Source: Acidobacteriaceae bacterium
GTDB taxonomy: Bacteria > Acidobacteriota > Terriglobia > Terriglobales > Acidobacteriaceae
Assembly (NCBI GenBank): GCA_021323655.1
Contig: JAJPKO010000016.1
Location: forward strand, 1-64,000
Length of the DNA: 64,000 nt
Direction of reading: 5' to 3'
Shown: piece after piece, positions 11,574 through 31,403 of the stretch
How positions within the stretch are numbered: position 1 is the stretch's first letter
How the letters are laid out: every line of letters begins with the position of its first letter
The notes under the pieces: generated by a model
The model's input: only the letters and a program-made list of their open reading frames with translations
Told to the model about the DNA's origin: nothing
The model's database searches: none
Made by a program: the position numbers and the translations under genes

Positions 11574-11586
11574 GGGAGCTCTCCAT

Positions 11587-12309
11587 TCAGTCAATTGCCA
11601 CAACAAGGCACGTAATATTGTCGAAGCCGCCTGCGCGGTTGGCCGCCTCGACCAATTGATGACAGGCGTGTTCGGGCGAAAGCGATGCGACGAGGATGCT
11701 CAGGATCTCAGAGTTCGAGAGCATACGGGTCAGGCCGTCGGTGGCAAGCAGAAAGCAGTCGTCACGCTTTGCCTGCACCGATGTGACTTCAGGGACAACG
11801 AAATCTCCTGCGCCAAGGGCCTGCGTGAGGACGCCGTCGAGTTCCGGCGCTTCGCCCTGCAGCCCGCTGCGAAGGCGTGCGGCGAGCAGCGAATGGTCTT
11901 CGGTCAGGCGATGCAGCGCGCCATAGCGAAGCAGATAGGCGCGGCTGTCTCCCACGTGCGCGATCCACATGCGGCTGCTGTCAAGGTGCGCGGAGACAAT
12001 GGTGGTGCACATGCCGGAGTAGGCCGACTCGCGTGCGGCGGCGTTGCGCAGGGCGTGGTTTGCCTTCTGCACGACACGATGCAGAGAAGAGCCGCCGCTC
12101 GCGCCATTGACGCCAGGATGGAAATAGTCGAGCACGGTATCGAGCGCCAGCCGGCTGGCTACCTCCCCGGCCTGGTTGCTGCCTACCCCGTCACATACAA
12201 CAAAGAGGCCGCGATCTAGATCAAAGCCAAACGCATCCTCATTCATTCGCCGTCTGCGGCCTGGATGGCTTTCGCCTGCCGCACGAATACGAATCTCCAT
12301 AGCGCTCAT
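11587..12309 (-). CDS. PP2C-family Ser/Thr protein phosphatase of the T6SS operon
   Basis: A 240-residue PPM/PP2C phosphatase, the presumed antagonist of the Ser/Thr kinase encoded at 30.4 kb, comparable to PppA in the threonine-phosphorylation control of Pseudomonas T6SS. Metal-binding motifs are visible: RRRMNEDAFG (N-terminal Asp), VVCDGVGSNQAGE (DGxG), HVGDSRAYLLR, LLATDGLTRML (DG) and GGFDNITCLVV (DN). The length is that of a catalytic domain only, without membrane anchor, so it acts in the cytoplasm. Its ATG overlaps the stop of the FHA gene (ATGA at 12306-12309), implying translational coupling; vgrG begins 13 bases downstream. Confidence 0.92.
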   Translation of the reverse strand: MSAMEIRIRAAGESHPGRRRRMNEDAFGFDLDRGLFVVCDGVGSNQAGEVASRLALDTVLDYFHPGVNGASGGSSLHRVVQKANHALRNAAARESAYSGMCTTIVSAHLDSSRMWIAHVGDSRAYLLRYGALHRLTEDHSLLAARLRSGLQGEAPELDGVLTQALGAGDFVVPEVTSVQAKRDDCFLLATDGLTRMLSNSEILSILVASLSPEHACHQLVEAANRAGGFDNITCLVVAID

Positions 12310-14446: not shown

Positions 14447-17107
14447 CTAGTTTGTCCTCGCTACTTCTTCAGCCTGATCAGCTCCCACCAGGCTGAAACT
14501 CAAACTGTCTTCCTCTTCAAGCGCAATGGCGACCTTGCCGCCGGCCTGCGGCGCTTCTGAAAGCAGCAGGCTGGCCAGCGGTGAGAGCACCAGCTGCTGC
14601 ATGGTCCGCTGTGCCGGGCGCGCTCCATATTCCGGGTCGTATGCCTGCCGCGCAAGATACGCAATGGCTTCAGGACTTACGTCCAGTCCAAGCTGGCGAT
14701 CCTCTTCCAGTTTGCGCGCCAGCTTGCCAAGGTGCAGCTTCACAATGCGCTCCAGCTCTGCTTCAGAAAGCGGATCGAAGGCAACGATCTGTCCAATGCG
14801 GTTGTAAAGCTCCGGCCGCAGGCTCGCGCGGACCACTTCCAGGATGATGTTCTTGCGCTCTTCCGGATCTTCACTGCTGGCCATGGCTTCGCGTACTCCC
14901 AGGTTCGAGGTGAAGATGACGATGGTGTTGGAGAAATCGCAGAAACGGCCTTTCGCATCTGTCAGGCGGCCTTCATCGAGCACGCCAAGCAGCAGGTCAA
15001 GAATCTCAGGATGGCCCTTCTCTACCTCATCAAACAAAACGACGGAGAAAGGCGACCGCCGCACCTGCTCGGTAAGGAATCCCCCTTCATCTGAGCCGAC
15101 AAGCCCTGGCCGCGAGCCAATCAGGCCGGAGACAGAAGACTTGTCTTTGTATTCGCCCATGTCAATCCGAATCAGGGCATGCTCATCGTCAAAGAGTGCT
15201 TCTGCCAGCGCCTTCGCCAATTCGGTTTTGCCTACGCCAGTAGGCCCTACGAAGAGGAAGGAATTGGGCGTCTGGCGCAGCTCCAGATCAGCGCGCATGC
15301 GGCGGGCTGCCTCAGAAACAGCGCTCACGGCCGCCGATTGTCCAAACACGCGTGCAGACAGACGTTCTTCAAGATGCAGCAGGCGTTCGCGCTCGCTCTC
15401 AAGCAGGCGCTGGATCGGGATGCCGGTGCGTTCACCAATGACCTCAGCAATGTGCTCCGCTGTGACCTCGGTGGAAATCATGGGATTCTCACTCGCGGCG
15501 CTCACCTGTGCTTCAAGATCAGCGCGCTGCTGCTCCAGATACTTAAGGCTTCCATAACGAATCTCTGCCGCCTTCGCGACGTCGCCCGATGCCTCGGCCT
15601 GCTTGAGTACCCGGTTTTGTTCTTCAATCGCTGCCACTGTTTTTTGCAGCTCAGCCGATGCTTGCCGGGACCGCTGCCAGGCTTCCGTCTGCGCTGCTAC
15701 TTGCGGAGCAAGCTCGGCAATCTCTTTTTCCAGCGCTGGAATGGCCTTTTTCTGTTGCGCGCTTTGCGGACCATTACGCAGCGCTTCAAGCTCTGCGCGC
15801 TTGCGGGTAAGCAGACGTGCCTGCTGGTCAATGTGCGTCGGCGTGGATTCCTTCTGCATGCGCAGGCGCGATGTGGCCGCGTCAATCACGTCAATGGCCT
15901 TGTCTGGAAGGAAGCGGTCGCGAACATACCGGCGCGACAGCTTGACGGCCGCGTGCAACGCATCATCTGAAAGCCGGACGCCGTGAAAGGTTTCGTATCT
16001 CTCACGCAGGCCGCGCAGAATGGAGAGCATCGCCTCGTCATTCGGCTCTTTTACCTGCACCTGCTCAAAGCGCCTGGCCAGTGCACCGTCTTTTTCAATT
16101 CGCTCGCGGTATTCGTCAAAGGTGGTAGCACCCACACAGCGAAGCTCGCCGCGGGCCAGTGCGGGCTTCAGGATATTGGCAGCGTCCATACCGCCTTCCG
16201 TCCCCCCTGCACCCACAAGCTGGTGAAGCTCATCCATAAAGAGGATGATCTCGCCCTTGCGCGAACGCACTTCTTCCACGACGGACTTGATGCGCTCTTC
16301 AAATTCGCCGCGATATTTTGCGCCAGCAACCAGAGCAGGCAGATCGAGCGCGTAGAGTTTGCAATCGCGCAGGCTGTCGGGAACATCTCCGGCAGCAATG
16401 CGAAGCGCGAGTCCTTCGACCACGGCCGTCTTGCCAACGCCGGGATCACCCACCAGCACAGGATTGTTCTTGGTCTTGCGCAAAAGCGTCTGGATCATGG
16501 AACGAATTTCATCATCGCGCCCAATGACGGGATCAATTTTCCCTGCGGCTGCCTCCGCTGTGAGGTCGCGGCCAAAACGTTCGAGTACCTTTTCCGCCGC
16601 AGGAGCGCCAGTAGAACGGGCCTGCTTTTCCGGCTGGAAGGTTTCTTTCAGCGTGCGTTGCGTGCCTTCAATCTTTTCTACCGCCTCTTTTGTGACTCCG
16701 GCTTCGCGCAGGTCCGTGCGAACATCATCGCGCAGATCATTCATGCTCTGGTCCACGGCGGCGAGCACGGCGTCAATCGGCTCCACGGAAGGAGAGTTAC
16801 GCTCGGCGGCAAGAGCAAAGCTGCGCTCCAGCAGATTGCGCAGCGCCTTGGAGGCAACGGGGCGGCGCCCCGGCTCCAGCTTGCCGGAGTTCGCCTTATT
16901 CAACCGTGTGGCCAAAGCGTCGAGCAAAGCTCCTACGGCAATGCCGTTGCGCTCAAGCAAAGCGTACAGACTGCTCTCATGATCGAGCAGCGTATAAAGA
17001 AGGTGTTCGGGCTGAATCAACGCCTGCTGCCGTTCGGCGGCCAGCAGGCGCGCCTGTTCCAGCGCCTGCTCCATTGCATCAGATAGTGCACTTAGGTCTA
17101 ACTGCAT
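14447..17107 (-). CDS. clpV: T6SS sheath-disassembly ATPase ClpV (TssH)
   Basis: A 886-residue class-I AAA+ unfoldase that recycles contracted TssB/TssC sheath. The start at ATG 17107 is preferred (GGAG five bases upstream); a TTG at 17125 would add six residues and overlap tssK. It has a Clp N-domain (about 1-150), AAA-1 with Walker [14 protein letters not shown] and Walker [16 protein letters not shown], a coiled-coil middle domain (about 395-530), AAA-2 with Walker [15 protein letters not shown] and [14 protein letters not shown], and a C-terminal D2-small domain. ClpB is the main alternative, but the location between tssK and the FHA gene in a T6SS operon decides for ClpV. Confidence 0.93.
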
Positions 17108-17117
17108 GCGTGCTCCA

Positions 17118-18884
17118 TTACTCAAGGCGCCGGCGACGTGGGCGGTTCAGCGGTTCTTCCGGTGAGGGCGGCGTGGGTCGTTTGTCTCGTGGTGCCCACG
17201 GCGGCAAGGCATCCTCTGCTGGCTCCGTAGTCACAGCCGGCTGCGCAGGTTCCATCGGCCGCGATGAAGAAAAGCGGCCATTTCCAAGTGGCGGCGGTGG
17301 AGGTGAGTAAGAATCCACGGGCGGCGGCACGCTGGCGGGCCGCACCTTTTCATAGTCCGGCTCCAGGTTACGCACCGTCTGCTCCTGCGTACGACTCGCA
17401 TAAAAGCGGTGCCGGATAAACAGGAGCGCCGTGCGGATGGGATGATAGGCCTGCACGGTAACACGCAAGTCGGTGATCGTCGGCACGTCCGGAGCTTCAA
17501 AGTCGAACTCGAAGTTGTATTGCTCATCGAGCTTCGCTTCTGCGGAAAGGATGATCGCTTCGCGACGGAATCCGGTGCCTTCATTCAGTCGGATCTCCGC
17601 GCTGATGGTGGTGCCGCGCGAGAAGGGAGCGTCCCGCTCGCCCACAAGAATAAGCCGGTAGCGGTCGCGTCCTTCCAGGCGCAATTGCGAGAAGAAGATG
17701 GTCAGCTCGTCGGCCACACCCTGCACACGGCTTGGCTTCGCGGCCAGCTTGTAGAGCACCTTGCCGCCGCGATCGAAGATAAAGTTCATGCCATCGAGCG
17801 ACGGGCTGATGCGGAAGTCAATGTACTTGCCCTCAAGCGCGCGCTCCAGTTTTTCGAGCGCAGTGAGCGATTGCAACGCCGAACGCACTTCCAGGCTGAG
17901 ATCATCCGCCAGCTTCAGGGTACGCGTCGCATCCAGTTGCCGTTTCTGCCCTTCAATCAATGAGACGAGCTCAGTTTCGCCGGTTTCACGCAGCGTTTCG
18001 TAATACTGTTGCATGTTTGGGGCGAGGCTGAAGAAGGTGGCTGACTGATGCAGCAGCTTGCGCACCTGAATAAAGAAGCTCTGCGGCGATTGCGTGCGGT
18101 CCAGAATGCTGTACGCAATCTCCTCAAGCGCCAGTACCATGCGCTCGGCAAACTGTGTGGCGTCGCGGTCGACCTCAGTCTCAATGCCGCGCTCGGTAAA
18201 CAGCACCATAAATTCGCGCATGGCGCGATGCAGCTCTGCGTACCCCTGGGAAAGCCGCTGAATCGCTTCGACAATCCGGCGCCATCCCGCCATCAATTCG
18301 CTGTGCGCAGAAAGCGTCAGGCACGGTGGAATGTACAGCGGGTCCTTCTCAAAGTGCGCGCCGCTGGCTGGTCTGCGGATGCGAGCAATCGCCAGTGCCC
18401 GCTCCCGTTCGGCGGCCGTTACCTGCAATGCGATCCGATAGCTGTAGGTGCGCTCGCTGCGCATCTGCGGATTAAACTCATCCGCAACACCATCTATCTT
18501 GATACGCTGCGACGGGTCTATGATCACATAGATTTCCGCTTCGGCCACCCCGGCGAGTGCGTCTTTGTCGAACCGTCCAGCGATTGCGCCATCTTCATCA
18601 ACGTCAATCAGAAGGCCAGATGGAGTGAGCCCGCGGCACTGCGTTACAGAAATGTTCAGCGCTTCGCTGTTTTCGTCGAGATAGACAATTGGATCGAGCC
18701 GTACCGCGCCGAGGTCCGGCAACGGCAGACGCACACCGCCGCCAATCAGACCATGTCCGGCGCTCATGTATCGCAGGCCCCAGTAGAACAGCGATTCAAA
18801 ATATTCTTCCAGGCGCAGGAAGTGCTCCGGGGTCAGGAGCATTCCATGTTCCCAATTGACCGATCTCAAACGAAGCGAGTCCAT
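17118..18884 (-). CDS. tssK: T6SS baseplate protein TssK with atypical Pro-rich tail
   Basis: A 588-residue TssK homologue, the baseplate subunit that in canonical systems trimerises and binds the TssL/TssM membrane complex. The family signature at the N terminus is clear: VNWEHGMLLTPEHFLRLEEYF. A helical middle (about 200-350) follows. The usual TssK is about 450 residues; this one has an extra beta-rich C-terminal section (about 360-500) and a final 80-residue proline-rich, positively charged tail (SYSPPPPPLGNG ... RPRRRRLE) that is probably disordered. Since TssL and TssM are not encoded here, the altered C-terminal half may bind a different membrane partner. Downstream clpV begins 10 bases after the stop. 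Confidence 0.82.
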   Translation of the reverse strand: MDSLRLRSVNWEHGMLLTPEHFLRLEEYFESLFYWGLRYMSAGHGLIGGGVRLPLPDLGAVRLDPIVYLDENSEALNISVTQCRGLTPSGLLIDVDEDGAIAGRFDKDALAGVAEAEIYVIIDPSQRIKIDGVADEFNPQMRSERTYSYRIALQVTAAERERALAIARIRRPASGAHFEKDPLYIPPCLTLSAHSELMAGWRRIVEAIQRLSQGYAELHRAMREFMVLFTERGIETEVDRDATQFAERMVLALEEIAYSILDRTQSPQSFFIQVRKLLHQSATFFSLAPNMQQYYETLRETGETELVSLIEGQKRQLDATRTLKLADDLSLEVRSALQSLTALEKLERALEGKYIDFRISPSLDGMNFIFDRGGKVLYKLAAKPSRVQGVADELTIFFSQLRLEGRDRYRLILVGERDAPFSRGTTISAEIRLNEGTGFRREAIILSAEAKLDEQYNFEFDFEAPDVPTITDLRVTVQAYHPIRTALLFIRHRFYASRTQEQTVRNLEPDYEKVRPASVPPPVDSYSPPPPPLGNGRFSSSRPMEPAQPAVTTEPAEDALPPWAPRDKRPTPPSPEEPLNRPRRRRLE

Positions 18885-18899
18885 TTCTTCCTCAATTTC

Positions 18900-19826
18900 T
18901 TACAACGAGCCTGCGCTTTCGCAGCCCTTGCCCAGATAGCTGTTGATCTGCAAACGGCAGTTTCGTTCCGCGATTCCCAAGCGCGGTGCCTGTTCCGGAT
19001 CGAGCACTACCCAGCGCAGTTCGTAATCCAGATGCACCGGCAGCACCAGCGCCAGCAGGCGGTCCAGCAAATCGCGCCCTTCGCTGCCCAGATATTTTTC
19101 GTAAGTAGCCAGCGGAACTGGCCCTATTTCTACGCGCAGATGGGCCATGTCATAAAACGCATCGCCCACAATAAAGTCCAGCCCGATTCGTGATGCTCTT
19201 TCCCCCAGGCGCGTCTTGGTCGGGTGCTTCAGGACTGCGAGCGAATGCCGGAAGGACGACGAGTTTACCGGAAGCCCGAGCACGCGCTCCAGCGCTGTCT
19301 TCACAGCTTCCTCGCTCCCGGCAATCGAAGGCAGATCCAGCAGCAGGAGCGCCAGCCTGTACCAGAGCGAGCGTGGCCACTCCTCCGGAGCAATGCCGAA
19401 AAGGCTGATCCATCGCGCACACGCAGCCAGATTGTCCGGCGCAAGACGCAGCAGCGATGCGCCTTCATACATCCAGTGCGTCAGTTTTTCTAAAGGATCA
19501 TCCAGGACTTCAAGCAGCTCGCGCGTACCTGGCTCGGCTTCACCGCCGCTGTCCCACATGGCCACAGGCAGACTGTGGTGAAAGGCAGGCCCCGCCACCT
19601 GAAGCTCGATCATGCCATCCAGGGCCCCTCCTGGAGCAGGCGACTGACCCACGACAGTGCCATGCGGAACGCTGTGCCACCCGACGGGACGTATGTGGAT
19701 GCGCGAAACGGGGACCTGCAAGCGCGCGAGGCAAGTCAGGGCCGAATGCAGATTGTGCTGAAATCCATGCGTACCTGAAACAAAGTCAGGCATGGTCCTC
19801 GGAAGCGTCACTGGAGCGGCGCTCAT
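18900..19826 (-). CDS. tssG: T6SS baseplate protein TssG with PASTA-like segment
   Basis: A 308-residue TssG/VasB-type baseplate protein, expected to form the wedge with TssF and TssE. The start at ATG 19826 is chosen because it makes an ATGA overlap with the tssF stop; an upstream start at 19847 is less likely. The C terminus shows the TssG-like pattern LGIAERNCRLQINSYLGK. Near the N terminus, VPHGTVVGQSPAPGG followed by MIELQVAG resembles a PASTA repeat (GtVisQsPapG then a beta strand), unusual for TssG. The assignment rests on both sequence pattern and its invariant position between tssF and tssK. Confidence 0.75.
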   Translation of the reverse strand: MSAAPVTLPRTMPDFVSGTHGFQHNLHSALTCLARLQVPVSRIHIRPVGWHSVPHGTVVGQSPAPGGALDGMIELQVAGPAFHHSLPVAMWDSGGEAEPGTRELLEVLDDPLEKLTHWMYEGASLLRLAPDNLAACARWISLFGIAPEEWPRSLWYRLALLLLDLPSIAGSEEAVKTALERVLGLPVNSSSFRHSLAVLKHPTKTRLGERASRIGLDFIVGDAFYDMAHLRVEIGPVPLATYEKYLGSEGRDLLDRLLALVLPVHLDYELRWVVLDPEQAPRLGIAERNCRLQINSYLGKGCESAGSL

Positions 19827-21529
19827 GCAACCACCCCCTGCTTCCACTCAAATTGAATATCGAGGTGCGTGCCGTGTAGCATCCGTGCCTGCAGAAGGCG
19901 CTTCAGCTCCTCCTGCAAAATGGGCAGCTCAATTTCCGGACGCGTGAAGCCGTCCGCATCCAGCGTGATCCAAAGACGTTCCAGGCGATGCAATCCATGC
20001 TCGCCGCGTTCGATTTCGCTTCTTACATCCACGGCCAGAATGCGGCGGTCAAAGCCCAGCGCGGTGGATTCAAGGTCGCTCCGCGTGACAATGCGTCCAC
20101 GCGTCAGGAGCGCGTTTGAGAAGCGGCGGCGCGCGTCAGAATAATCTTCGTCATCGGTGCCGCCTGCGGCTGCGGTCAGATGGTTCACCCGGATCTGATC
20201 AAAAGTTGCGCTACTGGCAAAGCCTGTAATGTCTCCGGGAGCAACCAGATTACCCAGCTCGCCATTTGTGAGCCACAGACGAATGTTTGCGCCTGTCTGT
20301 CGCGTGCCGTCGGGTCTAAGGCCGGGGTGCAGCGTGATCCTCTCTTTGGTGATCTCGTACCAGCCTTCTGCCGGGTTCGCAGTATTTCCCGGAGCTGAGT
20401 GGTAAATCTCATTGTCCAGACCGGAGACCGAGAGCGGCGCGACCAGCATCTGCCGCAGACCATGATGGCCACGCGTGATCGGCACCGAATAGCCATCCTG
20501 CTCAAAATGCACCGTCTGGTTCAGGCAGAAGAGGTTCGACGCCGTTGTGGCGTGCAGAATGATGCCGTGTATCGCCGTATGCAGCGCCGGCACATTCGCC
20601 GGAAGCGGTACCTTGATCCAGGCGCGCGGCGTCTCAAACCAGGAGCGCAGGTCGTGTCCCGCGAGACGCGAAAGAGGAACATCCAGCAGCCGTGGCACTC
20701 CGCAGAGCAGCTTCCGGTCGTCCACAATCTCCGGAAACAGAAAGGCACGTCCTGCATAAAAACCATCCGGCAAATCAGGAAGGCCCTCTTCTCTCCGCGC
20801 GCGCTGCGAAGATGCAACCTGCCACTCCAGTTGCCGCACACCGCGATGCACGCGATGCGGACGCATCAGTCCCTTGTCGCTTAGATCACCATCTTCTCCG
20901 AAAAACCACCAGGGCTCAGAAATAAGCCCCTGCTGAATCGAGTAGGCCCCTGCGCTTAAATCAAAGAACAACCCATGGTGGCTGAGGTGCGCAGGCCCCA
21001 GATTTTCAACCGCCAGAAAGATGGCGGGCTGCGGCCCAAGATTCACACGGACAGGATCATACGAAGGACGATACGTTGCGAATGACTCCGAAATGTCCAC
21101 CCCGGGGAGCAGTTGCAGTTGCTGCTCCTGATAGACCAGGGCCAGGGCAATCTGCGCGGGAGAAAGTGCGATGCTCACATCTGTGGCAAAACTCAGCCTC
21201 TCGCCGGTGGCCGCTTTCGCATTCAGTTCAGTGCCGGTTCGCAGTGTTTTGGCGTGCGGCCCGTTGGAGATGAACCGTACGACCGTCTGTGCGGGATGCG
21301 CGTAGCGCCCGGGTAGCTTGATGCCAGCAATCAGATCATCCAGCAGCTTTTCACGAATACGCCCGGTATTGGCATAGACCGATTCAATCTGATGAGCAAA
21401 CGTCCGGAAGATAACAGCAAGCACCGGGTCGAGGACATCCACCGTGATGCCAAAGTCCTTCAGCCGGCGGCGAAAGTCCTCGCGTAGTTTATGGTCAATT
21501 TCAAGAATTCCTGGCGTTTGAAAGCTCAT
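19823..21529 (-). CDS. tssF: T6SS baseplate protein TssF
   Basis: A 568-residue TssF/VasA homologue, the baseplate-wedge protein related to phage gp6/gpJ. It begins with the long amphipathic helix region typical of the family (AVIFRTFAHQIESVYANTGRIREKLLDDLI), has beta-rich middle parts (GPAHLSHHGLFFDL, PWWFFGEDGDL) and the C-terminal gpJ-like signature (SDARRRFSNALLTRGRIVTRSDLE). Its ATG overlaps the tssE stop and its stop overlaps the tssG start, so tssE-F-G are translationally coupled. The length is close to the family norm of roughly 550-620. Confidence 0.83.
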   Translation of the reverse strand: MSFQTPGILEIDHKLREDFRRRLKDFGITVDVLDPVLAVIFRTFAHQIESVYANTGRIREKLLDDLIAGIKLPGRYAHPAQTVVRFISNGPHAKTLRTGTELNAKAATGERLSFATDVSIALSPAQIALALVYQEQQLQLLPGVDISESFATYRPSYDPVRVNLGPQPAIFLAVENLGPAHLSHHGLFFDLSAGAYSIQQGLISEPWWFFGEDGDLSDKGLMRPHRVHRGVRQLEWQVASSQRARREEGLPDLPDGFYAGRAFLFPEIVDDRKLLCGVPRLLDVPLSRLAGHDLRSWFETPRAWIKVPLPANVPALHTAIHGIILHATTASNLFCLNQTVHFEQDGYSVPITRGHHGLRQMLVAPLSVSGLDNEIYHSAPGNTANPAEGWYEITKERITLHPGLRPDGTRQTGANIRLWLTNGELGNLVAPGDITGFASSATFDQIRVNHLTAAAGGTDDEDYSDARRRFSNALLTRGRIVTRSDLESTALGFDRRILAVDVRSEIERGEHGLHRLERLWITLDADGFTRPEIELPILQEELKRLLQARMLHGTHLDIQFEWKQGVVA

Positions 21530-23369: not shown

Positions 23370-24722
23370 CTATGCCTGCTTCGCTTCAGGATTCGTCGGT
23401 TTTGAAAATTCAGGCACATCAATTTTCAACACAAATGTTTCCGCAGGGCCCGTCGGCATCACGTTCAAGGTAATATCGCAGATGCCTTGCATGCGCTTGT
23501 TCGAATCCTTGTCCACAAATAGGTCGTAGCTGAGGATCGTCCCCTGCTCCACCTGTTCATCCAGCAGGCGCTTCAGGGGCGCCTCAATCTGCTGGTCCAT
23601 AAAGTCGCGCGTCAGTACCTGTCCGGCGACCTGCAACAGATAGTGACGGCAGCACCGCTCAAGGTATCGCAAAATTCGATAGGACGTGAAAAATTTCAGC
23701 ACACCGTAAGGATCGTCCGCCTGCGTGCGGCAGCCGAAGAAGCACAGATGATTGTCGGCATCGCGAATCACCGGGATCAGCTGCCGCTCCATGCTCAGGT
23801 GCTCCATCTCGCCAATCAATGGCTCAATGCGCGCCTTCTCCGCCCCATGCACTCTGCCAAATCGTGATCCCACCGGCCCCTGCGCCAGCCCCTGCGCATC
23901 ATCAGCGCGGGCAACAGCCCCGGCGAATGCCACCGATGGCGGCGCGTAGAGGCCATCCATCACCTGGTCCTTCTCAAACCAGTACGGCGATCGAAGCTGC
24001 AAGTATCCCATCAGGCAAACATCCGCTGCGGCCTGGTCTTCAGGCCGCTTCAGGAATTCATACTTACCGCCGGGAAGGAAATTCCGCTCCACGTTCTTGA
24101 AAGACTTCTCGTCATCCAGGTCGCTGATCAGCAACATGCCCCACTGGTTTGCAATCTGCTCAAACTTTTCACGAATGCTTTGCGGATAAAATCCCGGCAC
24201 AACCAGATTGCAGATATCGTCGCGAAAATTGAAGTTGTCATTGCGGGATTTCACGAAATTTTCAATCGCCGCGACGCTCATGCTGAAGATGTCCTTCATG
24301 GCCGCAACATCGGCGTTCAGAATGTACACCTCAACCGGCTTGCGCACCTTCCCGTCCATCACCTTGCTGTTCTCAAAGAACAGTTGCAATTGACGGTAGC
24401 TGCGCTCAATGGGACGAATCTGCTCAAACACCTGCGCCAGCAATTCGTCCCGCACGCCTTCCGCTTTCTCAATCTGCTGCTGCAGCTTCTGGACCGTGTC
24501 GTTGTAGCTGTCCGTCTCAGACAGCAGCTGGTCAAAATTCGTCAGTTGCGACAGAAATTCTTTCGCCGACTGCGGAGTAAAGATGCTGGCCAGCTCGCGT
24601 TTTTCGTCCGTAAGCGCCGGGTGCAGGTCCGCAAAAATGTCCTGCAACAGCTCGCGTGCAGGGGAATCTGCAATCAGCTCTTCGGTGGTCTTGGTGCGCG
24701 TGATCGTTTGCGTATCTGCCAT
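23370..24722 (-). CDS. tssC: T6SS sheath large subunit TssC
   Basis: A 450-residue TssC/VipB homologue, a contractile-sheath building block that pairs with TssB. Recognisable parts are the N-terminal helical region (LSQLTNFDQLLSETDSYNDTVQ), the core VEVYILNADVAAMKDIFSM, PGFYPQSIREKF, the segment FLPGGKYEFLKRPEDQ, and the C-terminal handshake domain (SYRILRYLERCCRHYLLQVAGQ ... SYDLFVDKDSNKRMQGICDITLNVMPTGPAETFVLKIDV). It is somewhat shorter and more divergent than proteobacterial TssC (about 490-500). Its ATG overlaps the tssB stop (TAATG), ensuring equal translation. Confidence 0.88.
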   Translation of the reverse strand: MADTQTITRTKTTEELIADSPARELLQDIFADLHPALTDEKRELASIFTPQSAKEFLSQLTNFDQLLSETDSYNDTVQKLQQQIEKAEGVRDELLAQVFEQIRPIERSYRQLQLFFENSKVMDGKVRKPVEVYILNADVAAMKDIFSMSVAAIENFVKSRNDNFNFRDDICNLVVPGFYPQSIREKFEQIANQWGMLLISDLDDEKSFKNVERNFLPGGKYEFLKRPEDQAAADVCLMGYLQLRSPYWFEKDQVMDGLYAPPSVAFAGAVARADDAQGLAQGPVGSRFGRVHGAEKARIEPLIGEMEHLSMERQLIPVIRDADNHLCFFGCRTQADDPYGVLKFFTSYRILRYLERCCRHYLLQVAGQVLTRDFMDQQIEAPLKRLLDEQVEQGTILSYDLFVDKDSNKRMQGICDITLNVMPTGPAETFVLKIDVPEFSKPTNPEAKQA

Positions 24723-25225
24723 TACTGTTTACCCCCGTTTGCAACCCGCTCCAGCTCGCTGCGCAGCTTGCCCAGCGCCGCAATGATTTCCTTGCGCTGC
24801 GCCTCATTCGCCCACGCCCGCCGCACAGTCGGCAGCTTCCACCGGTCTTTCAGCCGGTACAGCAAATCAATATTCGTTTTCAGATCTGCAATGTCGTTCC
24901 GCAGATACTCAACTTCGCCGTCCTCTTTGCGTATCTCCTGCTTTTTCTGCAGGTTTTCCGGATCGAAATCCTTGATGCTCCGGAACCGGAACTCGGCCTT
25001 GAATTCGGCCTCATCTTCTCCAGCATGCCCGGTAAACTTCAGCTTCGGCTGAAACTTACGGAACGCGTCGTTCAGGTCTTCGACCTTCACCGGCTCTTCG
25101 TTTTCTGAAGCCGCCTCAGCCCCGATCCTTTCCGGCGTCATGGGCAACATCATGGCGCACGTAGAGGTAGGTACTTTTCTTACGTGCGGCGTAACTCCTT
25201 TTCTGACGACTTTAATCAGCGGCAT
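24722..25225 (-). CDS. tssB: T6SS sheath small subunit TssB
   Basis: A 167-residue TssB/VipA homologue. Family features are FKAEFRFRSIKDFDPENL followed by a helical C-terminal half (DIADLKTNIDLLYRLKDRWKLP and EIIAALGKLRSELERVANGGKQ). The N terminus is atypical, with two short basic segments (MPLIKVVRKGVTPHVRKV) and an acidic linker where a proteobacterial TssB normally begins with SIQ.KL. The stop overlaps the tssC ATG; the upstream VWA gene ends 34 bases away. Confidence 0.85.
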   Translation of the reverse strand: MPLIKVVRKGVTPHVRKVPTSTCAMMLPMTPERIGAEAASENEEPVKVEDLNDAFRKFQPKLKFTGHAGEDEAEFKAEFRFRSIKDFDPENLQKKQEIRKEDGEVEYLRNDIADLKTNIDLLYRLKDRWKLPTVRRAWANEAQRKEIIAALGKLRSELERVANGGKQ

Positions 25226-25259: not shown

Positions 25260-26696
25260 TTATTTCTTCCCCTGGGAAGCTGCACTCGTCAGGTCAGGCC
25301 GAGGCCTGACTTGTGTGACCTGGGCCGCCGAGCGCTGCGGCGAACTGGCTCCTTCCGCATCAAACCCGTTCGGAGTGCTCTTTACCTGCACGCCTGAAGC
25401 CTGCACCGAGGCTTCCTTGCTCCAGCGGCGCCGTGTGCCCGAAGCTGGAAGGCCATTGTATTCACCCCGCCAAGCAATGCGCGGCACCCAGAACCATAGC
25501 AGCAACAATATTACGCCGAGCCCGCAAAATACCAGAATGCCGCGCAAAACGACGGACCATCCGGAAATTGCCGGGGGTTCTACAGACGCTAGTGCCTCCA
25601 GTGCCTCGCGGCCCAGATGCCCCTCATACAACGGAAAGCCCATCGCTGGTGGAACATAGGAAATCGTCTGGCTCGCCAGGTTCGTTCCGCCCAGCAGGTG
25701 CAGGTTGAAAACAAACTCCGCATTGCGCGCTGCCAACGAATGCCGGTCCGTCACCGGAGCAAGAAACGCAATCTCCAGGTCAGCTGGATGCACTGGGGCA
25801 GAAGAGCGGAACACCTGGGCCAGCTGCGCCGGATCGGACGCCAGAAAGTACCGCGTGGAGAGGCGCTTCAGGGCCTCCGCATCAATATCATTAGCATTCC
25901 CAAAACCAATTCCAATCACGTCGTATCCGGCATCGCGGACCTTCGCCGCTGCCTGTTCCAGCCCCAGCGGCCCGTCAAGCAGCACTGGATCGTCGCCATG
26001 GAAGACTTCGTTCTTGCCATCGGTCATCACGATCAGCTGCGCCGTCAGATTGCTTCGCAGCGTGCCCTTCTTCTCCAGCCGTGCAAGCTCCGCATTCAGC
26101 GTGTCCACTCCTGTGAAGACTGCCTGGTACAATGCCGTGTTGTTCTTTGGCCCAGGATCGGGCAGTGCATTCAGTTGCGCCACAGCCTGTTCCCGCCTGG
26201 TGGTAAACACAGCCGACTGGATCGTTGGCACCACATGATGGCTCTCAAACGGAACAATCGCTACTTCATCCACGCCGTCCTGCATCGTGGCCAGATAGTT
26301 TTGAATGGCCTGCTTGGCTGCGGTAAAGCGGCTGGTCCCCGGCGCGACCGTTTCATTCATGCTGCCGCTGATGTCAATTTCGATCAGCACAATGTCTGGC
26401 CGCGCAATGGCATCGCCACCCCCAGTTGCCTTTACATAGAACGGCGTAATCGTGCCGCTGGATGTCTGAATGGAAACAGCCTGCGTCAGCCGGTCCTGCG
26501 GCGGCAGAAGTACCCCGGCAGGAAGACCGTTGTGGTCTACTGGACTTAAATTGACGGTAAAGCAAGGGACCAGCGTCACCGGAGCGCAGTCATGCAGAGC
26601 AACCGGTCGTGTCTGGCGCAAAGCCACCGGGGGTGCCGCAACCGCATTTACAGCGGCAGCGAACAGAATGCAGGACAGGAGCGCGCCTTTCTTCAT
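25260..26696 (-). CDS. Membrane-anchored VWA-domain protein of the T6SS operon
   Basis: A 478-residue protein with a cleavable-looking signal peptide (MKKGALLSCILFAAAVNAVAA), a von Willebrand A domain with an intact MIDAS (DISGSMN, then a downstream Thr and MTDGKN, about residues 105-300), a beta-sandwich region (about 300-370), one TM helix (VVLRGILVFCGLGVILLLLWFWV) and a roughly 80-residue charged cytoplasmic tail. The VWA domain is therefore periplasmic. In Pseudomonas the T6SS kinase PpkA carries a VWA domain too; here the kinase and VWA are separate genes. It may substitute for part of the missing trans-envelope complex. ATGA overlap with the upstream FHA gene. Confidence 0.85.
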   Translation of the reverse strand: MKKGALLSCILFAAAVNAVAAPPVALRQTRPVALHDCAPVTLVPCFTVNLSPVDHNGLPAGVLLPPQDRLTQAVSIQTSSGTITPFYVKATGGGDAIARPDIVLIEIDISGSMNETVAPGTSRFTAAKQAIQNYLATMQDGVDEVAIVPFESHHVVPTIQSAVFTTRREQAVAQLNALPDPGPKNNTALYQAVFTGVDTLNAELARLEKKGTLRSNLTAQLIVMTDGKNEVFHGDDPVLLDGPLGLEQAAAKVRDAGYDVIGIGFGNANDIDAEALKRLSTRYFLASDPAQLAQVFRSSAPVHPADLEIAFLAPVTDRHSLAARNAEFVFNLHLLGGTNLASQTISYVPPAMGFPLYEGHLGREALEALASVEPPAISGWSVVLRGILVFCGLGVILLLLWFWVPRIAWRGEYNGLPASGTRRRWSKEASVQASGVQVKSTPNGFDAEGASSPQRSAAQVTQVRPRPDLTSAASQGKK

Positions 26697-27646
26697 TGCT
26701 CCCCCTGCTTTCTGGTGGTAAAGCGCAGCGCAGTCCGGCCAATCAGAATATCGTCGGCTTCGGTCAGCTCCTGTGATGTGGTGACTGTCTTCCCGCGTAC
26801 CCTCAGCACATATTTCGCAATGCCTGCAGGTCCGCCCGCATCTGGATGCCGCGCAATATAAAAGCGCCCTTCTTTGGAAAAGAGCACTGCATGACGGGCC
26901 GCCATCGAAGCATCAGGGATGAAAATTTCTGCGCCCGGCTGAAAGCGCGTCTCAGATTGCGAAGTCGCCAGATTGCCGACAACGTAGGTTTCCTCATGCT
27001 GCAATTCCCAATACTTGTTCGCGCGGCCATACTTGCTCTGTGCGCGCGCATCGGCGCTGCTGATGAACTGCACTGCTCCATCGCGAATCAACAGCGGAGC
27101 CAGCCCTGCTCCAAAACCAATTCCAGCACCCGTCAACATAAGCCCGGCCGCCTGACAGAGTTCTGGCTGGTGTGAGCCAAAACCAACAAATAGTAATCCT
27201 CCCAGCAAACCGCCCGCAAGACCTCCGGTATAGGTGTGCAGGATTCGTAATTTGTTCGTCGTCAGCCAGCGAGAGCCAATTCCCAAACCAAGGATGGAGG
27301 CGGCCAGCGCCCAGCCAGCCAGCCGGTACAGTACCGGAGATTCCGCAGAGACATTCGCGCGCAGAAACCAAAGCACCACAGCGGCGATCAAAGCAGACGA
27401 GATGGCGATAAGAACACCAAGGCCGATCGTCCTCCAGCGGAACGACCGCCCGGAAAAACGGTCCAGTTGCACAAGCAGAAATGGAATGAGAAGGACCGCA
27501 ACCAGCCCAAGAAGAAGCGTATCTGCCGCCCAGCCGGCAGCGGATGTCTGTATCGCTGCGCCAACGACAGCCTGGATGCCCCATGCCACGAGCCCGGCCA
27601 ACGCGCCTGAAAGGGAGGAAAAATATATCAGACGAAGGAAATCCAT
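26693..27646 (-). CDS. Six-TM protein with C-terminal FHA-like domain, first gene of T6SS operon
   Basis: A 317-residue integral membrane protein. About six hydrophobic helices are visible in residues 1-195 (e.g. TLLLGLVAVLLIPFLLVQ; GVLIAISSALIAAVVLWFL; AGWALAASILGLGIG; GGLAGGLLGGLLFVGFG). A cytoplasmic C-terminal domain (about 205-317) has FHA features: YVVGN, IFIPDASMAARHAVLF (in place of S-R-H), FYIARHPD and VRGKTV; the usual G-R/S-x-x-H/N-G signature is partly changed, so phosphothreonine binding is plausible but not assured. It is the promoter-proximal gene and overlaps the VWA gene by four bases. It may be the inner-membrane platform that recruits phosphorylated partners. Confidence 0.75.
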   Translation of the reverse strand: MDFLRLIYFSSLSGALAGLVAWGIQAVVGAAIQTSAAGWAADTLLLGLVAVLLIPFLLVQLDRFSGRSFRWRTIGLGVLIAISSALIAAVVLWFLRANVSAESPVLYRLAGWALAASILGLGIGSRWLTTNKLRILHTYTGGLAGGLLGGLLFVGFGSHQPELCQAAGLMLTGAGIGFGAGLAPLLIRDGAVQFISSADARAQSKYGRANKYWELQHEETYVVGNLATSQSETRFQPGAEIFIPDASMAARHAVLFSKEGRFYIARHPDAGGPAGIAKYVLRVRGKTVTTSQELTEADDILIGRTALRFTTRKQGEQ

Positions 27647-27797: not shown

Positions 27798-28904
27798 ATG
27801 CGTATAGTACGGGAAAAGATGGGCCTTCCAAAATTAACTCGAACCAGTTACCAGTCGTGCAGCATAGAAACCCTGTCCGTGGCCTTGGTCGGCCTTGGCG
27901 CACTGGGTAGTGAAATTGCCAGACTCCTCGGACTTCTCGGAGTGGCAGCCGTTGCATTAGTTGATAACGACACAATCGAGTCCGTCAACACTTCACAAAA
28001 CATATTTTTTCGCACCCCCGATGCTTTGCACCGGCCTAAAGCAGAAGTAATAGCAGAGAAAGGGTTTATCTACTTTCCAGATACCCGATGGATACCGCTC
28101 GCGTGCGAAATCGCGGACGCGGGTTTCAAGCCACTCAAAGATTGCGCGCTTATCATCAGCGCGACCGACAGCGCCTTGTCTCGAGTCGAAACTGCCTATG
28201 TCAGCAGGCGGCTCCATGTCCCGATGTTAGACACCGGATTATCAGGACCTGCCTGTTGGCGCGGACGGGCAGCATGGTTCCCGGCTGAAAGTAGCAGCGC
28301 ATGTTACTGCTGCCAGTTAAGTGAGGACCGCAGGGCAGAAGTCCTCTCGATGACCTGCTCCCCCGTTCTGAGCTGCCTCTGGAGTCCGGAGAATCTGGAC
28401 ATGCCGAGCACTCCCACCATGGCTTCCGTGGTCGCCGGTATGGCCATAGACCTCGCCTTCCGTCATGGACTGTCTCGAAAACAGGAGCAGTCCTTTGCCT
28501 GGGACATAGACCTGGACAGCCCGCCTGAACTGCGCCAGCACAGCCTTATCCGGTCTGTCACCTGTCCATTTCATGACTTCCCCGCTAGCGACGTACTCAC
28601 AGAACTGGACCACGACGCGCCATTCCAGCACTCCCTTACGGCGCTTGGAGCGCAAGCCATCCAGCTTGACTGGCCCGTGGCCACCGATGCAACATGCCTG
28701 AGTTGCCACCACAACTGGCAACCATTATGCAGGCTCGGCTGGCTCAGGCGCTATGGGAAATGCCCCCGCTGCGGGGAACCAGTCAAGGTGCGCTGGCACG
28801 CCATAGACCGCATCCTTACAAACACTGCGGAAGCAGGTTTTTCTCCCGCAGATTTGTCATACTCTAAAGACCATTTGTTTACGCCGGTTTACCATACTCG
28901 GTAG
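27798..28904 (+). CDS. E1-like ubiquitin-activating enzyme (ThiF/MoeB fold) with zinc ribbon
   Basis: A 368-residue E1-superfamily adenylyltransferase that should adenylate the C-terminal glycine of the ubiquitin-like protein encoded two genes later and pass it as a thioester. The Rossmann loop GLGALGSE (about 32-39), ATP/Mg segment DNDTIESVNTSQN (56-68) and SATDSALSRVE (121-131) are conserved. CYCC at 169-172 corresponds to the first zinc-cysteine pair, and TCSP with Cys187 is at the catalytic-cysteine position before the crossover helix (STPTMASVVAGMAIDLA). The C terminus adds a separate zinc ribbon (CLSC 300-303, CPRC 322-325). A second start (ATG 27819, with GGGAAAAG upstream) is possible. 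The E2 and RING genes downstream favour E1 of a conjugation cascade over a plain MoeB/ThiF enzyme. Confidence 0.86.
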   Translation: MRIVREKMGLPKLTRTSYQSCSIETLSVALVGLGALGSEIARLLGLLGVAAVALVDNDTIESVNTSQNIFFRTPDALHRPKAEVIAEKGFIYFPDTRWIPLACEIADAGFKPLKDCALIISATDSALSRVETAYVSRRLHVPMLDTGLSGPACWRGRAAWFPAESSSACYCCQLSEDRRAEVLSMTCSPVLSCLWSPENLDMPSTPTMASVVAGMAIDLAFRHGLSRKQEQSFAWDIDLDSPPELRQHSLIRSVTCPFHDFPASDVLTELDHDAPFQHSLTALGAQAIQLDWPVATDATCLSCHHNWQPLCRLGWLRRYGKCPRCGEPVKVRWHAIDRILTNTAEAGFSPADLSYSKDHLFTPVYHTR

Positions 28905-28913
28905 AAACGAACC

Positions 28914-29633
28914 ATGACGGCACGCTCAGGCACTATTGCACAAATCAGCGGACTGCTTGCCATTGCCTTCACGCTTTCCCTCATTGCGGGCATCGCCGGA
29001 AGCGCAGCCCTTATCGCCGCCACTGTACTCATCGGTGTGGCCACTCCTTTTGTGGCTTACTTCTGCGATATCAACCCTGTCCGCTGGTGGATCCTGCCCA
29101 CCGTGCTTTCTGTCACCTTCTGCGTGGCCCTGGTGGTCCTCGCCACTACCCGCCACATCGGAGCATTCACCTGGGCGCTCCCCGCTTTGCTCTTCGCTGT
29201 GATTGCGATCGCCTCCTTGCTGAGCAAAATGGCGAAACGCCGCTGCGCTTTATGCCACCGGCGTCTTGGCCCTCATGCCATTACGTTTGATTGCCCACGC
29301 TGCGGACTTGAGGTCTGCGACGAGTCCTGCTGGAACTTTGAGCACCGCCGCTGCCGCATGTGTGAGGAAAACCATGTGCCCATCCTGCCTGCGCAAAGCC
29401 AGTGGTGGGACCGCCAGCTCGGCCCGCGCGTGCATCAGGGGCGTTGCCAGTTGTGCATGGCATCGCCCGAACAGGCAGACCTGCGTATTTGCAGCCACTG
29501 CCACCGCCCGCAATGTCGTGACTGCTGGGACCAGGCTAACGGCGAATGCAGCCGCTGCGGCTGGACCATGCCCAATCTGCCCAAATCTCTCGAGACCGTG
29601 GCAGTCCATCTGCCCGCCCATCTGGAGCAATGA
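28914..29633 (+). CDS. Membrane protein with tandem RING-like (binuclear treble-clef) domains, candidate E3
   Basis: A 239-residue protein with about three hydrophobic helices (10-50, 58-78, 86-105) and a cytoplasmic C-terminal part holding two eight-cysteine zinc modules. Module 1: C111-C114, C127-C130, C135-C139, C147-C150. Module 2: C178-C181, C193-C196, C201-C204, C212-C215. The almost identical spacing (CxxC, 11-12 residues, CxxC, 4, CxxC or CxxxC, 7, CxxC) fits RING-like binuclear treble clefs rather than simple zinc ribbons. Between E1 and modifier genes, it is the obvious candidate E3 or membrane scaffold that recruits the E2. It starts nine bases after the E1 stop; its stop lies just before the modifier start, so coupled translation is likely. 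E3 activity is inference. Confidence 0.78.
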   Translation: MTARSGTIAQISGLLAIAFTLSLIAGIAGSAALIAATVLIGVATPFVAYFCDINPVRWWILPTVLSVTFCVALVVLATTRHIGAFTWALPALLFAVIAIASLLSKMAKRRCALCHRRLGPHAITFDCPRCGLEVCDESCWNFEHRRCRMCEENHVPILPAQSQWWDRQLGPRVHQGRCQLCMASPEQADLRICSHCHRPQCRDCWDQANGECSRCGWTMPNLPKSLETVAVHLPAHLEQ

Positions 29634-29635
29634 CC

Positions 29636-29896
29636 ATGCCTAAATTTCAAATGTATTTCGATACGGTTCGCGGTGAGACGCGTTACAACGTTGACATAGA
29701 TGAAAACGAAACACTCTCTGAAGTGCTCGAAGAAATTCTGTTCGACCTCCGCGAGCGCGGCGATGTGCTTGCCGGAGAAGGCGAACCTCAGGTCATCTGG
29801 AACGGCCAGAGCCTCGACTTTTCCATCCCGCTATATCAGCAGGGCGTGCGGCCCAACGATGTTCTCCGCATCTCCACCATCGCCACAAACGGGTGA
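29636..29896 (+). CDS. Ubiquitin-like beta-grasp protein (YukD/EsaB-like) ending in glycine
   Basis: An 86-residue beta-grasp protein. Start: ATG 29636 is preferred to ATG 29630 because GGAG at 29624-29627 is eight bases from the former and only two from the latter; longer in-frame forms lie inside the preceding gene. Pattern: strand FQMYFDTV, strand TRYNVDIDEN, helix TLSEVLEEILFDLRERGD, strand PQVIWNGQSLDF, and PNDVLRISTI, matching the ubiquitin order with the conserved late G-V-R-P-N-D-V-L segment seen in YukD-like proteins. It ends ...TIATNG, with a single exposed C-terminal glycine available for adenylation without processing, consistent with the absence of a JAB protease gene in the window. 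It is flanked by RING-like and E2 genes and ends next to the E2 start. Confidence 0.82.
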   Translation: MPKFQMYFDTVRGETRYNVDIDENETLSEVLEEILFDLRERGDVLAGEGEPQVIWNGQSLDFSIPLYQQGVRPNDVLRISTIATNG

Positions 29897-29898
29897 CC

Positions 29899-30435
29899 AT
29901 GCCAGCGCTACGCGAACGCAGGCTCGCCCATGAATGGGAAGCCCTGCAGCAGTTCAAGGCCAGTTCTCCCGGCAGGCTTACGGAGATCGACCGCGCAGGT
30001 GACGAGGCATTCCTTCTCACGGTGGCCGAAATGCCCGCACTCTGCCACGCCCCCGGAGACGACTGGGCCTCCGCCCTCTGCAATCGCCATTCGCTGAAAA
30101 TTCTGTTCCCGCGCTACTACCCCGCCATGCCGTGCGAAATCTATCTTTCGCGCCCGGTATTTCATCCCAACGTGGATGAAGTAAACGGCTTCGTCTGTCT
30201 CTGGAACAGGTACAGCACCGCATATACCAGCCTCCATGCATTGACGCAGCTGGCAGCCATCCTGGCCTGGCGCCTGATGAACACTGAAGCCATCCATCTC
30301 CTGCAGCCCACTGCTCTCGACTGGTACAACAGCACCGGACAGGCCTCGGAAAAGCTGCCTCTTTCGCGCGCTCCGTGGATCGAGCTTCCCGGACTGTCCA
30401 TTCACGGTCGGCCCTCCCGGAGGCGCTTGTCGTGA
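29899..30435 (+). CDS. E2-like (UBC-fold) conjugating enzyme
   Basis: A 178-residue protein with the E2 hallmark: FHPNVDEVNGFVCLW, i.e. His89-Pro90-Asn91 and the catalytic Cys100 nine residues later, preceded by the strand-turn LKILFPRYYPAMPCEIYLSRPVF and followed by the helix YTSLHALTQLAAILAWRLMN and the C-terminal helix region LLQPTALDWYN, as in the UBC fold. The ATG 29899 lies 3 bases after the modifier stop; an in-frame GTG at 29893 overlaps it. It should accept the modifier from the E1 as a thioester. Proline-containing HPN and Cys are intact, so catalysis is plausible. The tail PSRRRLS is shared with the next gene's product. The stop overlaps the kinase start (GTGA). Confidence 0.84.
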   Translation: MPALRERRLAHEWEALQQFKASSPGRLTEIDRAGDEAFLLTVAEMPALCHAPGDDWASALCNRHSLKILFPRYYPAMPCEIYLSRPVFHPNVDEVNGFVCLWNRYSTAYTSLHALTQLAAILAWRLMNTEAIHLLQPTALDWYNSTGQASEKLPLSRAPWIELPGLSIHGRPSRRRLS

Positions 30436-31403
30436 TCTCGCTCAACCTCTTTACATTCAGGACGCGCGCCGACAATCCCTCCGCGCAAAAGGCCAATCTT
30501 CCCGAACTCTCCAGCCGGCTTGAGACCATCCTTGCGGCAAAGTACCGTCTCGTGAAGCACCTCGGCTCAGGCGGCATGTCCACCGTGTGGCTCGCGCGCC
30601 ACCGCGTCCACGGAGCACTCTTCGCCATCAAAGTGCTTCATCCATTTCTGGGCGAGCACCCTCAGTTCCGTGAGGCCTTTGTCCACGAAGCTGCTCACAC
30701 CGCCGTGCTGTCCGGCCATCCCAATATCGTTCCCATTTTTGACATAGACCATGCGGACGGACTGCACTACATCGTCATGCCCTATGTTCGCGGGCACGAT
30801 CTGGACCAGGTGCTGCAACAGTGCGGTACGCTCAATCGCGCCGACGCCCTGACCGTGGCGCTTGAGATCGCCAGTGCGCTGGCGTATGCCGAAGAGCGCG
30901 GCATCATCCACGGGGACCTCTCCCCGGGCAACGTCCGGATAGACGGGTTCGGACGTGTTCTGCTGCTTGATTTCGGCCTCTCTGCCCCGCAGCATGTCTT
31001 TGCCCCCAACAGTAGCGTTCTGCTCGGAACACCGTACTCCATGAGCCCTGAGCGACTTGCTGGCGAGCGGCCCGGCATCCGCTCGGACCTCTACTCGCTC
31101 GGCGTGCTCCTCTTCCACATGCTGATCGGCCATCCGCCATTTGAAGGAAAATCCGTCGAGGCCATCGAAAAATGGCATCGGGAAGGCGTCTTGCACTTCC
31201 CTGACGCCTTTACCCAGGGCCACAAGTCGCTGGCCGAACTTATCGAGCGTCTGCTGGCAAAACACGTCCAGGACCGCCCAGCGAACGCAAAATCACTGGA
31301 AACGTTGCTCCGCGACCTCGGCGCAGAAAGCCACCCGCTGGAACTCTCTCACGACCTGCCCGCCGACGAAAAAATCGGAGCAATGCGCCGCCGCTTGTCG
31401 TGA
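30432..31403 (+). CDS. Ser/Thr protein kinase, soluble, with variant catalytic loop
   Basis: A 323-residue Hanks-type kinase. GTG 30432 is chosen since it forms a GTGA overlap with the E2 stop; longer in-frame starts lie inside the E2 gene. Motifs: glycine loop LGSGGMSTVWLA, AIKVL lysine, HEAAHTA (alpha-C Glu), catalytic loop HGDLSPGNV, DFGLS, activation-segment GTPYSMSPERL (APE equivalent SPE), and DLYSLGVLLFHML. The catalytic loop has Gly for Arg in HRD and Ser for the usual Lys two residues after the Asp, so it is an atypical but probably active kinase. There is no TM segment and no sensor domain; the C terminus is short and ends MRRRLS. PP2C and two FHA proteins across the promoter complete a phosphothreonine circuit comparable to PpkA/PppA/Fha of other T6SS. 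Confidence 0.88.
   Translation: MISLNLFTFRTRADNPSAQKANLPELSSRLETILAAKYRLVKHLGSGGMSTVWLARHRVHGALFAIKVLHPFLGEHPQFREAFVHEAAHTAVLSGHPNIVPIFDIDHADGLHYIVMPYVRGHDLDQVLQQCGTLNRADALTVALEIASALAYAEERGIIHGDLSPGNVRIDGFGRVLLLDFGLSAPQHVFAPNSSVLLGTPYSMSPERLAGERPGIRSDLYSLGVLLFHMLIGHPPFEGKSVEAIEKWHREGVLHFPDAFTQGHKSLAELIERLLAKHVQDRPANAKSLETLLRDLGAESHPLELSHDLPADEKIGAMRRRLS

Follow-up and report, generated by a model that had tools for sequence, protein, structure and literature searches.

A small membrane protein with sixteen cysteines arranged in two modules of eight, encoded beside E1- and E2-like enzymes in a soil bacterium, raises the question of what such a protein does there and which cellular machine it serves. 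The protein, here termed TM-RING, lies in the window, the whole stretch of 64,000 nucleotides of an Acidobacteriaceae contig that was analysed. Its cysteines, its neighbouring genes and its distribution across related genomes point to a ubiquitin-like conjugation cascade associated with a type VI secretion system (T6SS). The features of the locus are collected in Table 1.

Table 1. Features of the cassette and of the T6SS cluster in the window
Feature	Position	Strand	Remarks
TM-RING protein, candidate RING-type E3	28914..29633	+	239 aa, single open frame
TM-RING module 1 (Cys 111-150)	29244..29363	+	predicted cross-brace two-zinc module, nearest FYVE in the model
TM-RING module 2 (Cys 178-215)	29445..29558	+	RING-like, all-Cys ligands, bears the Prok-RING_2 match
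E1-like (ThiF-fold) activating enzyme	27798..28904	+	Pfam ThiF 5.6e-22
Ubiquitin-like protein (Ubl), 86 aa	29636..29896	+	ATG at 29636, upstream in-frame ATG at 29630; predicted ubiquitin fold
E2-like conjugating enzyme	29893..30435	+	Pfam UQ_con 2.5e-7; HPN motif, C102; RRRLS tail
Ser/Thr protein kinase	30432..31403	+	GTG at 30432 overlaps the E2 stop; open from 30375; RRRLS tail
Membrane protein, weak C-terminal FHA match	26693..27646	-	first T6SS-cluster gene, divergent from the cassette
VWA-domain protein of the T6SS cluster	25260..26696	-	
TssB/VipA-like sheath subunit	24722..25225	-	
TssC/VipB sheath subunit	23370..24722	-	co-occurs with the cassette
Probable TssF	19823..21529	-	adjoins TssG; weak Baseplate_J and baseplate-wedge matches
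TssG	18900..19847	-	
TssK-like baseplate protein	17118..18884	-	VasE Pfam match; ends ...NRPRRRRLE
ClpV-like AAA+ ATPase	14447..17125	-	
PP2C phosphatase	11587..12309	-	

Architecture of the TM-RING protein

The hydropathy profile of TM-RING places four hydrophobic segments in its N-terminal part, at about residues 8–27, 31–50, 58–77 and 84–103, and so corrects the three transmembrane helices counted in the preliminary description. The C-terminal part that follows these segments is soluble and carries the two eight-cysteine modules. The translation agrees with the cysteine spacing reported earlier, namely 111, 114, 127, 130, 135, 139, 147 and 150 for module 1 and 178, 181, 193, 196, 201, 204, 212 and 215 for module 2, which correspond to residues 8–47 and 75–112 in soluble-region numbering (plus 103 for the full-length protein).

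A search of 100 relatives with TM-RING as the query returned its own gene and chance-level matches only, and the family was opened up instead by an E2 search across the class. Among 21 aligned TM-RING sequences, the window protein included, 12 of the 16 cysteines are invariant and each of the other four is present in 20, all four being missing from a single MAG. Because of this conservation, the cysteine pattern represents more than chance.

Mutual likeness and predicted fold of the two modules

The two modules had been called near-identical, a description that fits the spacing of their cysteines but not their sequences, in which 12 of 42 positions are identical, 8 of them cysteines. Their profiles align with an hhalign probability of 95.8 (E 7e-9), and the similarity of the 34 non-cysteine columns exceeds that of shuffled ones (p 1e-4; p 0.006 without the shared Trp). 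The internal duplication suggested from the cysteines is, in a simple form, weakly supported, because module 1 resembles FYVE domains and module 2 RING domains, and because module 2 is about equally similar to eukaryotic RINGs and to module 1. Nor does the low sequence identity support a simple recent duplication.

The soluble part was modelled with AlphaFold2 (pLDDT 86.9, pTM 0.72), and a Foldseek search of the model against the PDB gave nothing significant (best E 0.064). In VIA-align, the top matches of module 1 are FYVE and FYVE-related domains (Z 4.0–4.8, rmsd 2.1–3.5), while module 2 aligns with the RING E3s Ltn1, Deltex2, RNF38, PML, RNF213 and RNF4 (Z 3.5–4.5), both sets being weak. 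All these top matches are cross-brace two-zinc folds with Z under 5; that other zinc-finger families are missing from the list does not count against those families. The weak Z values of module 2 agree with a profile search of PDB sequences and with Prok-RING_2. Specifically, the family profile matches Arkadia, RNF165, RLIM, AMFR and NOT4 over module 2 (E 0.0025–0.01), in a search that gave an archaeal ribosomal protein and the zinc fingers of muscleblind scores similar to those of the RING E3s. Prok-RING_2 matches the soluble region at 24.5 bits, above the Pfam cut-off of 22.4, with the full-length protein (19.5 bits) and module 2 alone (22.1 bits) just under it; for Prok-RING_1, the window TM-RING scores below the Pfam cut-off.

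The homolog at locus L060 provides a further indication of how zinc may be arranged. In its module 2, Cys 2, 5 and 6 are gone and Cys 1, 3, 4, 7 and 8 remain, so that one cross-brace site is short of three of its four ligands and the other is complete. This loss pattern, a single event in one MAG, fits a cross-brace better than the separate single-zinc knuckles that the preliminary description had named as the alternative. Its proposal of binuclear treble clefs is supported by the cross-brace matches of the AlphaFold2 model (Z 3.5–4.8), the profile search and Prok-RING_2, so that both modules are predicted to be two-zinc treble clefs of the cross-brace type, with zinc presumably bound by the cysteines.

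E3, RBR and FYVE features

At Cys1+2 of module 2, the E2-contact site, a hydrophobic residue (L/V/I/M) is found in 20 of the 21 sequences, and a Trp occupies Cys6+1 in all 21, at a position that differs from that of the usual RING Trp. Similar Ile and Trp residues are important when the archaeal RING protein srfp works with its E2 (PMC5654768). TM-RING has no linchpin Arg/Lys following Cys 8: the position is taken by Gly in 17 of the 21 aligned sequences in module 2 and by E, V, L or M in module 1. The Pro between Cys 7 and Cys 8 is missing as well. The linchpin is missing in some RING E3s as well; its absence here stands against a fully canonical E3. The four hydrophobic segments and the E1, Ubl and E2 neighbours agree with the transmembrane helices and gene neighbours reported for bacterial Prok-RING_1 proteins.

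The resemblance to RBR ligases that had been drawn from the tandem layout is not sustained. The modules are separated by only about 27 cysteine-free residues with no IBR-type middle domain, and the 21 aligned sequences contain no conserved cysteine beyond the 16, hence no free catalytic cysteine; an RBR layout is rejected on both grounds. The FYVE lipid motif R(R/K)HHCR is likewise not recognizable, and the alignment of module 1 contains no RHHCR. The suggestion of an E3-like role beside E1 and E2 is supported.

The E1, Ubl, E2 and kinase cassette

The gene order E1–TM-RING–Ubl–E2(–kinase) is kept across more than 20 Acidobacteriota genomes, and a deeper-branching member of the phylum (L082) has the same cassette. 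Pfam matches confirm the E1 and E2 neighbours noted at first (Table 1), whereas the preliminary description had overlooked both the gene for the Ubl and the partnership with the T6SS that is treated below. In the E1, eight cysteines are invariant among 30 homologs, including C193 (30/30) and the C-terminal CxxC pairs; C193 follows the C169xxC172 pair and is the candidate catalytic cysteine, a placement that we take to be like that of the catalytic cysteine of ThiF. In the E2, N93 of the HPN motif and the catalytic-type C102 are present in 31 of 31 sequences, and H91 is nearly invariant.

The Ubl has no Pfam match, and because its profile found nothing significant among PDB sequences either, the assignment of its fold rests on the model, which adopts a ubiquitin fold (pLDDT 91), SUMO and ubiquitin matching it with Z values of up to 10.8. 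In Foldseek, this model is matched best by the ubiquitin-like domain of ESX-5 EccD5 (E 2.8e-4). The Ubl ends exactly in a conserved NG without a tail, an end found in all free homologs and presumably comparable to the single-Gly ends of the Atg8/Atg12 type. No processing peptidase is therefore needed, and the cassette contains neither a processing peptidase nor a deconjugating JAB gene. At two loci, L016 (1228–2070, + strand) and L082 (895–1755, - strand), Ubl and E2 are fused in a single frame and the NG end is lost, so that the fused Ubl would not act as a free modifier there unless cut. Separately, contig C3 of the window genome encodes, among ribosomal protein genes, a 60-residue protein whose eight cysteines follow a RING-like pattern (L002, 1498–1680, + strand).

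The T6SS cluster and its co-occurrence with the cassette

On the other strand, the window carries a T6SS cluster with the TssB/C sheath, the TssK/F/G baseplate, VgrG and ClpV, TssF being assigned by position and weak matches. The TssM/TssL (IcmF/DotU) domains PF06744, PF14331 and PF09850 were found nowhere in the whole window genome; T6SS-iii is likewise devoid of TssL and TssM (PMC10781749). Another protein encoded in the cluster (12306–14444, - strand) combines an FHA domain with 3-keto-disaccharide hydrolase domains in one chain. Its VgrG (9153–11606, - strand) shows a weak VRR-NUC match on the C-terminal side and adjoins a TsiV immunity gene (8182–9135, - strand), and the two are likely to form an antibacterial effector/immunity pair.

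The cassette and the T6SS occur together almost one to one. The sample comprised 399 genomes from the class. An E2 search located the cassette in 21 of them, and the T6SS sheath gene TssC is present in 20, all among those 21; the number of genomes with TssC was 20 both when the window TssC and when the whole TssC Pfam family was used. Fisher's test across the 399 genomes gives 8e-33 with phylogeny ignored, a value that overstates independence because the genomes are related. In the twenty-first genome (G408), which is without TssC, the cassette adjoins FHA and VWA genes where the contig ends; in another (G117), cassette and TssC lie on separate contigs; and a third (G346) holds two copies each of cassette and T6SS, belonging to different clades (L012/L038 and L034/L047). 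Wherever the contig and the examined stretch allow, the cassette is close to T6SS genes. A Ubl scan of named genomes yielded 21 loci, including those of Granulicella, Terriglobus, Edaphobacter, Bryobacter and other Acidobacteriota, and nearly all of them have T6SS-cluster genes within the examined stretch. This distribution suggests, rather than proves, that tagging of proteins serves bacteria in the assembly or control of a T6SS.

A C-terminal tail shared by E2, kinase and TssK

The E2, the kinase and TssK end alike, in a short basic tail where S, E or Q comes after RR(x)RL; this tail is found in 16 of 17 TssK, 18 of 29 E2 and 8 of 21 kinase sequences. In the window it forms the C-termini of the E2 (30435), the kinase (31403) and TssK (17118). 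The tail was first spotted on E2 and kinase and then on the window TssK, and because its strict form was set afterwards, the counts are descriptive and do not test the pattern. The definition did not presuppose that the tail is absent elsewhere: RRxRL[SE] ends none of the 1,830 other ORFs of 100 residues or more at these loci, and it is absent from the remaining T6SS and cassette families.

A proposed cascade at the inner membrane and its alternatives

With moderate confidence, we regard TM-RING as the membrane-anchored RING-type E3 in a cascade of ubiquitin-like conjugation that is specific to the T6SS. In such a cascade, the E1 would adenylate the Ubl at its NG end, which is ready for use, and hand it on to C102 of the E2. 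TM-RING would then, mainly through module 2, bring the loaded E2 to the inner membrane, and there the Ubl would be attached to a T6SS component. The leading candidate target is TssK, or a common partner bound by the tails of TssK, E2 and kinase. Tagging of this kind would set when or where the T6SS machine docks, alongside the kinase/PP2C/FHA layer. A more far-reaching proposal, possible but doubtful, is that this represents a T6SS branch with its own covalent Ubl cascade, in which the Ubl that the double-finger E3 attaches at the inner membrane would, via TssK, dock or release the baseplate in place of the canonical TssJLM anchor, and the shared tail would gather E2, kinase and TssK.

The strongest rival to covalent conjugation is non-covalent docking, in which the Ubl and the transmembrane zinc protein would form the inner-membrane dock of a TssJLM-less T6SS, with the Ubl binding TssK and with E1 and E2 acting as assembly partners or modifying only themselves. 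We consider this rather unlikely, although several observations agree with it: the EccD5 match of the Ubl model, the lack of TssM/TssL domains in the window genome, the Ubl–E2 fusions in two lineages and the absent RING linchpin, together with the analogy to Bacteroidota TssN, which has five transmembrane segments and an EccD-like cytoplasmic domain and binds TssK (PMC10781749). A scaffold would, however, have no need of the catalytic-type cysteines that E1 and E2 keep without exception, nor of the exact NG end kept in the free Ubl. By the same analogy, docking and tagging may be compatible, the Ubl being attached enzymatically here and built in in Bacteroidota.

The cascade might also be real while the transmembrane zinc protein binds Ubl or E2 instead of acting as a catalytic E3, in which case the FYVE-like module 1 could bind lipid or protein. 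The matches of module 1 to FYVE domains rather than RINGs, the missing linchpin Arg and Cys7-Pro, and the loss of three module 2 ligands in one lineage are consistent with such a receptor or adaptor, but module 2 retains the hydrophobic residue at Cys1+2 (20/21) and the Trp (21/21), and we judge a purely binding role improbable. Links to defence are known for bacterial E1/E2 systems, among them Bil, Bub and CBASS Cap2, and the E1 here resembles PADLOC E1-E2 models at 9e-11, as would suit an anti-phage system that merely adjoins a T6SS. The near-complete co-occurrence with the T6SS makes this highly improbable, as does the lack of PADLOC matches for E2 and Ubl, with TM-RING giving only a marginal unrelated one. 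NCBIfam contains no family for E2, Ubl or TM-RING.

If the proposed conjugation cascade serves the T6SS, it would apparently be the first case in which an E1/E2 system is linked to a secretion machine through their nearly one-to-one occurrence; bacterial ubiquitin-like systems of known role are mostly anti-phage. It would also offer a candidate for the missing membrane anchor of the TssJLM-less T6SS in Acidobacteriota. The connection of Ubl domains with secretion machines (EccD, YukD, TssN) would then be open to direct tests in Granulicella or Edaphobacter, which can be cultured. Interest in the cascade would be high if the T6SS role were confirmed.

Comparison with known systems

The closest relatives of TM-RING in domain type are Prok-RING_1 and Prok-RING_2 (Pfam PF14446 and PF14445), which Burroughs, Iyer and Aravind are said to have defined in 2011, the bacterial Prok-RING_1 proteins reportedly carrying transmembrane helices and being encoded beside genes for E1, E2 and Ubl. 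TM-RING shares with these families a RING-like domain, seen in the Prok-RING_2 score of its soluble region, and differs from them in its tandem modules, in a module 1 nearer to FYVE and in the T6SS partnership.

In Caldiarchaeum subterraneum, an operon encoding E1, E2 and the RING protein srfp together with a Ubl has been reconstituted as an E3-dependent conjugation system (PMC5654768). The Acidobacteriota cassette resembles this operon in combining Ubl, E1, E2 and a RING protein. The srfp protein is a small single C3H2C3 finger with a linchpin Arg, whereas TM-RING is membrane-bound, as far as its hydropathy indicates, and has two all-Cys modules; in addition, the Caldiarchaeum Ubl needs cleavage by Rpn11, while the Ubl here is ready-made.

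The Bil and Bub systems also have E1, E2 and Ubl, and the matches of the cassette E1 include Citrobacter BubCD as well as a model for BilD. Unlike the cassette, their operons carry deconjugating or processing peptidases (JAB in Bil). To our knowledge, no TM-RING or T6SS is known for Bil or Bub. Homologous E1 and E2 enzymes are likewise encoded in operons that combine E1, Ubl and E2 with a JAB-like peptidase (cf. type 6d in Iyer 2006, PMC1779556). An operon of this kind occurs in other members of the window's bacterial family (L028 and L029), where the Ubl ends in GGLR or GGCR, with residues past the GG, and the part seen contains no RING; it is likely to be a sister system.

On the secretion side, the nearest parallel is the T6SS-iii membrane complex TssNQOPR of Bacteroidota, which lacks TssJLM and in which an EccD-like ubiquitin-like domain at the membrane is proposed to contact TssK (PMC10781749). 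In T6SS-iii, however, the Ubl-like domain is fused to a membrane protein and is not known to be accompanied by E1 or E2 (PMC10781749), whereas here a separate Ubl is accompanied by E1 and E2. The searchable literature yielded no report linking a T6SS to a ubiquitin-like cascade, although an earlier description of the operon or of the link is possible. Membrane RING proteins beside E1, E2 and Ubl genes are already known; their link with the T6SS appears, within the literature searched, to be new.
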